NCBI RefSeq assembly: GCF_005406125.1
Contig: NZ_BIXZ01000002.1
Coordinates: 62,001 to 126,000 of the forward strand
Direction of reading: 5' to 3'
From: Haloarcula mannanilytica
GTDB taxonomy: Archaea; Halobacteriota; Halobacteria; Halobacteriales; Haloarculaceae
DNA length: 64,000 nt
Numbering within the stretch: the stretch's first letter is position 1; each line of letters starts with the position of its first letter. The notes beneath the pieces were generated by a model. The model saw only the letters and a list, made by a program, of their open reading frames with translations, was not told where the DNA came from and did not search any database. The position numbers and the translations under genes were made by a program. Below, one piece after another: positions 22,799 to 26,519 of this stretch.

Positions 22799-24214
22799 TT
22801 ACAGCTGGTCGAGCCAGTCCTGGGCGCGGGACTCGGTGGTCTCGGCAATGTCGGCCAGTTCGGCCGCGTTGTAGTCGGCCAGATCCCCAACGGTCTCGAT
22901 ACCGGCGTCGTGCAGCCGGTCTGCATAGGTCGGGCCGATGCCGGAGACGGTGGCAACATCGGCGGGTCCGTCGTCGGCCTCCACATCGCTCTCGGTGTCA
23001 CCGGTCGCGTCAACGTCGATGTCGGTGAGTTCCGACTGGTCGTCATCGTCTTCGGCACCGGAATCGGGGGACTCGACCTCGATGTCCACCTCCTCGCTCT
23101 CGTTGCGCTCGGAGTACCACTCGGCGACCTCGGGCCAGAGGTCGGCATGGGTCGAGGACGACACGGAGAGACCGATGTGGCCCGTCGAGAACTCGATGGT
23201 ACGCGTGTCGTCGCTGGCGATGACCTCGTTGAACGGCTTGGAGGCCTCCGGCGGGATGAGGTGGTCGTACTCGCCCATGAGCTGGAGAACGGGCATGTCG
23301 ATGTTGTTCAGGTCGACGTGTTTGCCGTCGAGCTCCAGCTCGTTCTTGTAGAGCTTGTTGTCCTGGTACACGTCTTCGAGGAACTGGACGTAGGCCTCGC
23401 CGGCCACGTCGATGCCGTCACCGAGCCACCGCTCCATGCGGCCGAAGTTCTCGACGAAGCCCTCGTTTTCCATGTTCTCCGCGAAGCGGATGTACTTCGT
23501 GACGTAGTTCTCGACGGGGTCCATCAGCGCGAAGCCGATGTCAAGCATGTCCGAAGGGACGTTGCCGAACGTATCGACCACGTCTCTCGGGGAGTAGTAC
23601 TCCTCGGAACCCCACTCTTCGAGGACGCCGCCGGTCTGGTCGAAACACAGCCCCGCGGCCATCAGGCCCAGCGCGTTGACTTTCTCCTTGTGGAGCGCGG
23701 TGTACATCACCGACATGGTACCGCCCATGCAGTAGCCCAGGATGTTGATGGCGTCCTGCCCGGAGCGTTCCCGTACCACGTCGACGCAGTTGTCCATGTA
23801 GCGATTGACGTAGTCGTCCAGCGTGAGGTGCTGGTCGAGCCGCGAGGGTTCGTTCCAGTCGATGAGGTACACGTCGTGGCCCGCTTCGAGCAGGCGGCGG
23901 ACGACCGACCGCTCCTCCTGTAAGTCGAGGATGTACGGGCGGTTGATGAGCGCGTAGACGATGAGAATCGGGACGGCCTCTTTGTCCTCCTCAGCGACCT
24001 CGATACCGGCGGCCTCGGCATCGTACTGGAGGAGTTCGAGCTTGTTCTCCTCGTAGACGACCTCGCTTGGCGTCTGGCCGACATCGACGGACTCCATCAG
24101 CTCCAGCCGGTCGCCGGCGATCTGACTGGTCTCGGCGGCGTCGGTCATGTTCTCAAGCGTCTTGCGCTGCCAGTTGAGCGCGGCCTCGAACGGATTGAAT
24201 GGGTTGCTGGACAT
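22799..24214 (-). CDS. phaC: Polyhydroxyalkanoate synthase, class III PhaC subunit, with C-terminal helix-hairpin-helix
   Basis: 471 residues. It polymerises (R)-3-hydroxyacyl-CoA on PHA granules as a PhaE-PhaC complex. The catalytic triad is visible: C162 in GYCMGG, D317 in [10 protein letters not shown] and H346 in FSTGHIGLS. The alpha/beta hydrolase fold ends near residue 365. An acidic linker follows, and the last 50 residues ([20 protein letters not shown] onward) resemble a helix-hairpin-helix, as in RadA. Bacterial PhaC proteins lack this. Starts four bases after phaE ends, so co-translated. Confidence 0.97.
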
Positions 24215-24217
24215 GGG

Positions 24218-24763
24218 TTACTCTTCCAGGTGTTCGAGGATGCGGTCGAGCTTCTGTTCGACCGCGTGCTGGCGGCGCTCCAGTTCGATGAGGCGCTCGC
24301 CGACCTCGTCTACGTCGTCGCGCGTCGGGAAACCGAGCTGTTCTAGGGTGTCCTGGCTCAGGTCGTCGGCCTCCTGTTGCATCTCCATCATCGACTCGAC
24401 AAGCTGGCCGTTGGCGGCCGCGAAGGCCGAGGTACCCATGACGTGCTTGAACGCCTCGTTGGCGGACTGCAGCCAGATGTCACGGAACTCGGCGGGGTCG
24501 ACATCCTCGCCCTGTGCGGCGTCAGTCGAGCGCTCGACCATCTGCTCGGCGGCGTCGATCCACTCCTCGTAGGCGCGGTTGTAGCCGTCCATCCCGTCGG
24601 CAAGGTCCTCCTCCTCGGGGATCGTGTCCTCAACGGCATCGGCCCAGGACTCCACGAAGGCCGCCTGGGCCTTCATGTTCTGCTCCATCGAGTCGGCGAC
24701 CGCGTTGTTCATCTCCTCAACCATCTCCGTCCATTCCTCCTGAATGTCGTTTGTGTTACTCAT
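24218..24763 (-). CDS. phaE: Polyhydroxyalkanoate synthase subunit PhaE
   Basis: 181 residues, the haloarchaeal class III PHA synthase partner, shorter than bacterial PhaE. It is predicted mostly helical, with coiled-coil segments (DEVGERLIELERRQHAVEQK). It has no enzymatic motif of its own but is required for PhaC activity. The ATG at 24763 was used rather than the longer in-frame ORF beginning at 24790, which adds MCARRRGTI. It sits between phaP and phaC in the leftward operon. Confidence 0.93.
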   Translation of the reverse strand: MSNTNDIQEEWTEMVEEMNNAVADSMEQNMKAQAAFVESWADAVEDTIPEEEDLADGMDGYNRAYEEWIDAAEQMVERSTDAAQGEDVDPAEFRDIWLQSANEAFKHVMGTSAFAAANGQLVESMMEMQQEADDLSQDTLEQLGFPTRDDVDEVGERLIELERRQHAVEQKLDRILEHLEE

Positions 24764-24808
24764 AATAGTACCTCGGCGGCGGGCGCACAAAAAAACCGGT
24801 CGTCGTTG

Positions 24809-25366
24809 TTACGCTTCGACGTCGACTGCGTCGGCGGCTTCGGCCTGCACTTCCTCGACTTGCTCCTGAATCTCCTCGACCTGCTCCTGCACTTCTTCGA
24901 GCTGCTCGCCGAACTGCTCGGCGGCTTCGACGGACTGGGATTCGAGTTCCTCGTGGGCCTCGACGAGCATATCGACCTGCTCGTTGACGGCAGTGACGTA
25001 CTCGTCGGTCATCTCGTCGTAGGTATCGACGCCCTCGGAGAGCTCCGATTCGAGGTTGTCGAAGACCTCGGCGTGGTTCTCGAGCAGGAAGTCGAACTGC
25101 TCGTCGACGGTCTCGCGGATCTGCTCGACGGTCTCTCTGGTGCCGGGCACAGTCGCGGCCACGGCGTCGAGGTAGCTGTGGAGCGCGGTCTGTTGCAGTT
25201 CAACGCCGCGACGCTGGGCCGACTCCTGCGTGTCGAGGCTGTCGATAACCGCGTTGTTGACGTTCTTCTGGAAGGAAACGCTCTGTTCGAGCGCCTTCTG
25301 GCTCTGCTCGATTGTGGTACGCTGCATCTCGAACGCTGTCGTAACGGGGGTTGTGTAGTCTACCAT
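24809..25366 (-). CDS. phaP: Phasin PhaP, PHA granule-associated protein
   Basis: 185 residues, almost wholly helical, ending in a strongly heptad-patterned acidic coil (LEEVQEQVEEIQEQVEEVQA). Phasins coat PHA granules and control their size and number. Starts MVDYTTPVTTAFEMQRTTIE. A longer open frame upstream overlaps the AbrB-like gene and is not used. The AbrB-like gene ends 7 bases before this start. Confidence 0.88.
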   Translation of the reverse strand: MVDYTTPVTTAFEMQRTTIEQSQKALEQSVSFQKNVNNAVIDSLDTQESAQRRGVELQQTALHSYLDAVAATVPGTRETVEQIRETVDEQFDFLLENHAEVFDNLESELSEGVDTYDEMTDEYVTAVNEQVDMLVEAHEELESQSVEAAEQFGEQLEEVQEQVEEIQEQVEEVQAEAADAVDVEA

Positions 25367-25373
25367 TGTTGGA

Positions 25374-25673
25374 TTACTCGCTGTTGTTGTTAGTGACCGG
25401 GAGGACGACGGCTTGGACGATGTCGCCTTCGTCGATGCCAAGCGCCTCTCGCTCCGCATCGGGGATGCTGATTCGACCCCCGCTTTGCACGCGGGTCTTG
25501 AACGTCGCCATCTGACTCATGGCGCCGAGCTGATTCATATCGAAACTCGGCATGCCACCGTTGGCGAACATCTGTTTCATCAGCTGCTGTTGCTGTTCCA
25601 TCGCATTCTCGCTCGCCTGTTGCATCCCCTTGAACATCGGAGGCCACATCAGGCCATCATCCTCGTCGGCCAT
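25374..25673 (-). CDS. AbrB/SpoVT-type regulator of the PHA operon (PhaR-like)
   Basis: 99 residues. The N-terminal part is Met/Gln-rich (QQQQLMKQMFANGG). The C-terminal half, TRVQSGGRISIPDAEREALG then EGDIVQAVVLPV, is a swapped-hairpin AbrB domain. Such a gene at this place in haloarchaea is known as PhaR-like and represses its own operon and phaP, being titrated away by PHA granules. A four-half-site operator array lies about 50-80 bases upstream of the ATG, consistent with autoregulation. Confidence 0.85.
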   Translation of the reverse strand: MADEDDGLMWPPMFKGMQQASENAMEQQQQLMKQMFANGGMPSFDMNQLGAMSQMATFKTRVQSGGRISIPDAEREALGIDEGDIVQAVVLPVTNNNSE

Positions 25674-25700
25674 CGGTCAAGTACACATAGACCCTTCAAT

Positions 25701-25710
25701 AATATAAAAC
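25701..25710 (-). promoter_or_regulatory. TATA element of the phaR-phaP-phaE-phaC operon
   Basis: On the minus strand GTTTTATATT, about 32 bases before the regulator's ATG at 25673. Confidence 0.6.
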
Positions 25711-25721
25711 TTCCCCTGAAA

Positions 25722-25754
25722 ACCATTGAGTACCATTGAATGGTATCAAATGGT
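25722..25754. promoter_or_regulatory. Symmetric four-half-site operator
   Basis: ACCATT at 25722-25727 and 25732-25737, then AATGGT at 25739-25744 and 25749-25754. Inner and outer pairs share the centre 25738 and half-sites on each side are ten bases apart, one helical turn. The inner dyad reads TACCATTGAATGGTA. It lies just upstream of the TATA element of the PHA operon, a plausible site for the AbrB-type regulator. Confidence 0.7.
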
Positions 25755-25815
25755 ATGAACCGTTGAGCGGCGGTAAGGACAGCGTTGCGCCCTGCAGCAC
25801 CGATAACTGCAACCC

Positions 25816-25913: not shown

Positions 25914-26519
25914 ATGAGTTCTGAATCGCATCGGAATCCGCTGTTAGACACATGGACTGAGACATCGTCGCATATGTTCAACAGCGTCGTCGCAGCTAAC
26001 CGGGCAGCGTTCGCCGCGTTCGGCGTCCAGCAGGAGGACGAAAACGGCGTTACGCCCGCAGACCGTATCGAACCGAACGAAGACCTCCCCGAATGGCACG
26101 TCTCGATCTCCGAAGACCACCCGGGCCAGCTCGGCGTCGGCGATCACGTCGATTTCACGAAAACGATCTCGGAGAACGACGTTCGCCAGTTCGCCGCCGC
26201 GAGCGGTGACACGAACCCGCTCCATCTTGACGATGAGTTCGCGGAACAGACCCGCTTCCGGGGCCGCATCGCCCACGGGACCCTCGTCGGGAGCCTCATC
26301 AGCGCAGCGCTCGCGCGCCTGCCGGGGCTGACTATCTACCTCTCGCAGGACCTGGAGTTCCACAACCCGGTCCGTATCGGCGACCGCCTCACCGCCGAGT
26401 GTGAGATCGTCGAGGACCTCGGCGACGAACAGTACCGACTGACCACGCGTGTCCTCGCTGATGACGAAGTCGTCATCGACGGCGAAGCGGTCGTCCTCAT
26501 CGACGACCTACCGGAATAA
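25914..26519 (+). CDS. MaoC-like (R)-specific enoyl-CoA hydratase (PhaJ role)
   Basis: 201 residues with a hotdog fold. The hydratase motif is visible in DVRQFAAASGDTNPLHLDDEFA (Asp/His pair) and GRIAHGTLVGSLIS. In the pathway it would convert trans-2-enoyl-CoA to (R)-3-hydroxyacyl-CoA for PhaC. It is divergent from the PHA operon with regulatory DNA between. The TATA element (TTTAATACTC) 30 bases upstream sets the ATG at 25914 rather than a longer in-frame ORF from 25785. Confidence 0.87.
   Translation: MSSESHRNPLLDTWTETSSHMFNSVVAANRAAFAAFGVQQEDENGVTPADRIEPNEDLPEWHVSISEDHPGQLGVGDHVDFTKTISENDVRQFAAASGDTNPLHLDDEFAEQTRFRGRIAHGTLVGSLISAALARLPGLTIYLSQDLEFHNPVRIGDRLTAECEIVEDLGDEQYRLTTRVLADDEVVIDGEAVVLIDDLPE

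Follow-up and report, generated by a model that had tools for sequence, protein, structure and literature searches.

A row of TGGTA-type boxes in 10-bp phase with the haloarchaeal phaR promoter as the likely operator of PhaR

What is the function of the repeated boxes in front of phaR in Haloarcula mannanilytica? Within the 64,000-nt stretch of DNA analysed here (the window), ACCATT at 25722-25727 and 25732-25737 faces AATGGT at 25739-25744 and 25749-25754, with both pairs centred on 25738 and the same-side half-sites 10 bp apart on each side of it. A first-pass annotation had given these coordinates, the shared centre and the spacing, and had read them as a nested palindrome for two AbrB dimers; the sequence bears out the geometry. 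The operator that it placed directly upstream of the TATA element, ahead of an AbrB-type regulator, phaP, phaE and phaC, is likewise supported as a multi-box operator against the BRE/TATA by the arrangement of the locus:

22799..24214, minus strand: phaC, class III PHA synthase
24218..24763, minus strand: phaE, PHA synthase class III subunit
24809..25366, minus strand: phaP (phasin), starting 7 bp past phaR and named from its position and the published haloarchaeal maoC-phaR-phaP-phaE-phaC cluster
25374..25673, minus strand: phaR, encoding a 99-aa protein with a C-terminal AbrB-type domain, the putative binder
25698..25709, minus strand: TATA element TTTTATATTATT of phaR
25711..25719, minus strand: BRE-like region, assigned as BRE from the usual layout of archaeal promoters; a fifth phased slot (25711-25715, GGGAA) overlaps it
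25721..25725, minus strand: box 4, adjoining the BRE, TGGTT in phaR direction (F)
25731..25735, minus strand: box 3, TGGTA in phaR direction (F)
25741..25745, minus strand: box 2, TACCA in phaR direction (R), with the most frequent orientation changes within the genus
25751..25755, minus strand: box 1, furthest from phaR, TACCA in phaR direction (R)
25914..26519, plus strand: MaoC/PhaJ-type hydratase gene, divergent

The choice of unit matters for how the element is read. As pentamers on the plus strand, the boxes are AACCA at 25721, TACCA at 25731, TGGTA at 25741 and TGGTA at 25751, each starting 10 bp from the next, and this step also holds across the inner gap, where the orientation turns. 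The spacing of one helical turn, originally proposed for the half-sites on either side, is thereby supported for all four boxes. In the direction of phaR the element runs TACCA-N5-TACCA-N5-TGGTA-N5-TGGTT, followed by the BRE-like GGGAAG and the TATA element TTTTATAT; with R standing for TACCA and F for TGGTA relative to phaR, the window thus reads RRFF. The hexamer ACCATT/AATGGT was rejected as the unit: its spacing here is 10-7-10, the inner distance of 7 bp masking the regularity, and it is a misfit with orthologues built as direct repeats.

Could the array be a product of chance, or a structural palindrome (a hairpin or cruciform) that acts without protein? The core of the element is self-complementary, its two inner boxes forming a perfect mirror symmetry in the window, and this would suit a structural role. 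Yet window shuffles gave an expected count of 0.00 per window for the spaced half-site pattern. A search for at least three of four TGGNA/TNCCA boxes in 10-bp steps returned this element as the sole match in the window, and nothing in 40 simulated windows. It was also the single match to three-box patterns in the whole 4.2-Mb genome, where no second multi-box site that might mark another PhaR target was found and two-box matches were rare, at about control level. Moreover, orthologous promoters with purely direct repeats cannot make a palindrome, yet they keep the phase. The comparative data already contradict chance or a protein-free palindrome, and we give this explanation practically no weight.

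Of the 146 family genomes, 135 have PhaR, as do 236 of the 392 sampled from the order; the comparison covers 131 phaR promoters from 44 Halobacteriales genera. Retention of the spacing in orthologous phaR promoters had been named at the outset as a test, and it is kept: with starts 10 bp apart, 111 exact TGGTA/TACCA pairs were counted, where dinucleotide shuffles gave 0.1 on average and 2 at most; as the genomes are mutually related, the pairs do not represent independent events. These pairs, which were counted with fixed words and hence independently of any matrix, comprised 73 forward-forward, 19 reverse-reverse and 19 reverse-forward cases, and no forward-reverse case. A four-slot comb of at least 20 bits was present in 80% of the promoters at a step of 10 bp, a level that is somewhat favourable, since these promoters also served to refine the comb matrix, which had been seeded with TGGTA at 10 bp; at steps of 6-9 and 11-15 bp no promoter scored as high, nor did any control stretch lying further upstream. 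From the start of box 4 to the TATA element the distance was 17-18 bp in 82 of 104 promoters, and about one 10-bp step less in 14 more. The comb thus keeps a phase relation to the core promoter, its following slot coinciding with the BRE. Second phaR-phaP loci in two genomes (L264, L265) carry four-box combs of their own, with phaE and phaC undetected nearby. Separately, seven promoters (L026, L028, L029, L076, L083, L087 and L088) have an extra TGGTA box between TATA and start codon, immediately ahead of the latter, which is a possible second point of repression. Three haloarchaeal phaR-type loci (L170, L175 and L212) lie on contigs labelled as bacterial MAGs, which are probably misbinned.

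While phase is conserved, orientation is not. RRFF is the commonest single pattern among the 131 promoters (31), followed by RFFF (26), FFFF (9), RRRR (5) and RRRF (1), most of the others having a weak slot. Is the nested symmetry of the window then functional, with two dimers binding symmetrically about 25738? The exact mirror symmetry of the window and the prevalence of RRFF, an order shared by some 24 of the 30 congeners, would agree with such an arrangement. Against it, related promoters keep the 10-bp phase while the same slots read FFFF, RFFF, RRRF or RRRR. A tree was built from phaR and the sequence downstream of it for the 30 congeners, with two outgroup rows; on it, slot 2 needs four changes of state or more, slot 1 one or more, and slots 3 and 4 none. 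We consequently dropped the nested dyad as an essential conserved feature; the mirrored arrangement seen in the window is one form among several, and what is conserved is the phased comb. Because orientation varies at constant 10-bp phase, two AbrB dimers sitting on a nested dyad do not follow from the array. A functional dyad seems unlikely to us, and a row of phased boxes, each readable either way, fits better.

Within this variety, F rarely stands upstream of R: F-before-R pairs, all from five promoters, were observed 8 times as against 26 expected when orientations were shuffled within slots. Two routes would account for the variation. Single boxes may have reversed where they stand, with TGCCA and TGGCA, which both occur among the boxes, as one-step intermediates that still match the consensus; or the array may have grown and shrunk by 10-bp units around one turning point. 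The R-then-F rule may have no function and be a relic of history, one ancestral turning point having been followed by the gain or loss of units.

What protein reads the comb? In a study of 2015, reportedly, Cai et al. (AEM 81:373) described a negative cis-element of the Haloferax mediterranei phaRP promoter and proposed it as the site of PhaR; this account is known to us through citing papers. Those papers place a negative, semi-palindromic element just upstream of the BRE (PMC6085418) and give it four repeats (PMC9049629). By these descriptions, the window element corresponds in position and layout to the H. mediterranei one: it too lies immediately upstream of the BRE/TATA of phaR-phaP, consists of four repeated units, is semi-palindromic and precedes an orthologous AbrB-type PhaR with its PhaP. 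The H. mediterranei relatives H. mucosum (L148), H. larsenii and H. elongans have the same 10-bp comb, reading RRRF as opposed to the RRFF of the window with its perfect mirror symmetry of the inner boxes. The same literature also agrees with the autorepression by haloarchaeal PhaR that the first-pass annotation stated: H. mediterranei PhaR represses its own phaRP promoter (PMC7137286; also PMC9049629 and PMC6085418), and deletion leads to fourfold promoter activity (PMC7137286). The early guess at function, a site where PhaR shuts off its own gene, is probably right.

Taken as a whole, the element is very probably the operator through which PhaR controls the phaRP promoter. Its four boxes of the TGGTA type follow one another in exact 10-bp steps and in fixed phase with BRE and TATA, which would place them on one face of the DNA. 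PhaR, granule-associated and predicted to carry a swapped-hairpin domain of the AbrB type, would occupy neighbouring boxes, whichever way each of them points, and from this place beside the BRE would impede use of the promoter by TFB and TBP. Repression would hold phaR and phaP low until PHA granules form and take up PhaR, whereupon the promoter would be released. We infer the contact of PhaR with the boxes, its stoichiometry, the interference with TFB and the release by granules; the granule-release view is in line with the higher phaRP expression seen when PHA is present (PMC7137286).

Alternatively, the boxes might be bound by another protein (PspR, a further AbrB-type protein or an upstream activator), with PhaR acting elsewhere or secondarily. 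Sites directly upstream of the BRE can, after all, also be activator sites, and PhaR is conserved in some genomes without the array. ChIP and EMSA place PspR on the H. mediterranei phaRP promoter, where it is reported to bind weakly (PMC10948481). The array, for its part, is found with phaR throughout the order and stands before the second phaR-phaP loci as well; it is single-copy in its own genome, and its boxes match the consensus of AbrB-type proteins. Overall, we regard a different binder as quite improbable.

The genomes without the array deserve a closer look. Loci of Halovenus and of a related MAG (L209, L211, L218, L219 and L225) have phaR without a detected adjoining phaP, and no box array; where it could be read, the AbrB-type domain of PhaR in the array-less Halovenus loci is unchanged, which counts against the boxes being a PhaR operator. 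The five lowest comb scores in the named set all belong to loci without detected phaP. This looked striking, as if phaP and the array were always lost together, but six loci in further genomes of two genera (L233, L242, L243, L248, L249 and L259) lack a detected phaP and keep an array. Because of these, the link is only suggestive, and we treat the joint loss of phaP and array as a lead.

How does PhaR itself relate to known DNA-binding proteins? Its C-terminal stretch FKTRVQSGGRISIPDAEREALGIDEGDIVQ is conserved across the order. Against the AbrB model TIGR01439 it scores 23.2 bits, under the curated cut-off of 28.3, and a Pfam search of PhaR found no domain, for which reasons we call it AbrB-type rather than a curated member. 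A profile of the PhaR family matches the archaeal AbrB-like chain 2glw in two places (E 2.5e-8), and SpoVT (2ro5) weakly (E 0.91); by such profile comparison, PhaR is related to the solved swapped-hairpin AbrB-like chains. The AlphaFold model of PhaR, of low confidence (mean pLDDT 62.9), gave no mechanism. A fold search with this model returned no match at E 0.001 or better, its best match being the dimeric DZBB barrel Ph1 with a probability of 1.00 but an E-value of 0.09.

The boxes recall a bacterial code. The consensus of Bacillus subtilis AbrB consists of TGGNA boxes 4-5 bp apart (PMC8552724), also written TGGNA-N5-TGGNA (PMC11497800). Three of the four boxes of the window match TGGNA exactly, the fourth being TGGTT, and all spacers measure 5 bp; across the compared combs, N is T in 221 of 257 TGGNA boxes. 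Shared with the B. subtilis sites are thus the pentamer, the 5-bp spacer (a 10-bp period), an AbrB-type protein and autoregulation, and those sites, too, can exceed 40 bp. In contrast, B. subtilis AbrB sites are degenerate and number hundreds genome-wide, whereas here four boxes occur at one locus in strict phase with BRE and TATA, and the AbrB-type domain of haloarchaeal PhaR is C-terminal. Bacterial PhaR, for instance that of Cupriavidus, is similarly a granule-associated repressor of the phasin gene. It differs in that it acts on separate promoters of phaP and phaR (PMC9049629), while the haloarchaeal PhaR is AbrB-type and would act on one promoter common to both genes.

Together, this leads us to propose, tentatively and at slightly less than even chances, an operator common to the archaeal order, wherein the bacterial AbrB code (TGGNA-N5-TGGNA) takes the form of a strict 10-bp comb phased with BRE and TATA, with boxes facing either way and no F upstream of R. 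If true, PhaR would assemble as a phased row with no fixed dyad. A box could then change direction through successive point mutations, in the series TACCA-TGCCA-TGGCA-TGGTA, and remain a consensus site at every step. The H. mediterranei phaRP negative element was known already; judging by the papers examined, what is new is the sharper architecture, the order-wide rule and the connection with the bacterial AbrB code. The link of the haloarchaeal phaR comb to that code was not found stated in the literature examined, the primary 2015 account lying outside it. What had been a negative element of a single species thereby becomes an order-wide, base-level rule for a predicted PhaR operator, a rule useful for tuning the expression of phasin and bioplastic in haloarchaea. 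How bacterial AbrB recognises its sites has been described as elusive (PMC4022651). With the comb one can ask directly whether AbrB-type proteins of archaea and bacteria share the TGGNA code, and how such proteins tolerate turned boxes.

Which genes would such an operator control? Ahead of the element, a single PHA operon had been assumed. The gene order stands; the single unit is less certain, since a run of T6-7 followed by GTGCG or a close variant at 24789-24795, between phaP and phaE, is kept in 29 of 29 parsed congeners, and phaEC of H. mediterranei reportedly has its own promoter (PMC13038957). Given this tract, a possible terminator or attenuation point dividing phaRP from phaEC, and the reported promoter, the unit is best named phaRP, and common control of phaE and phaC is in doubt. 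On the opposite strand, the TATA-like element of the divergent MaoC/PhaJ-type gene lies about 120 bp from the array, which probably has no effect on this gene. PhaC, encoded at the far end of the cluster, has a C-terminal helix-hairpin-helix domain at residues 419-471 (HHH_5, E 1e-10), an unusual addition of DNA-binding type for a PHA synthase.
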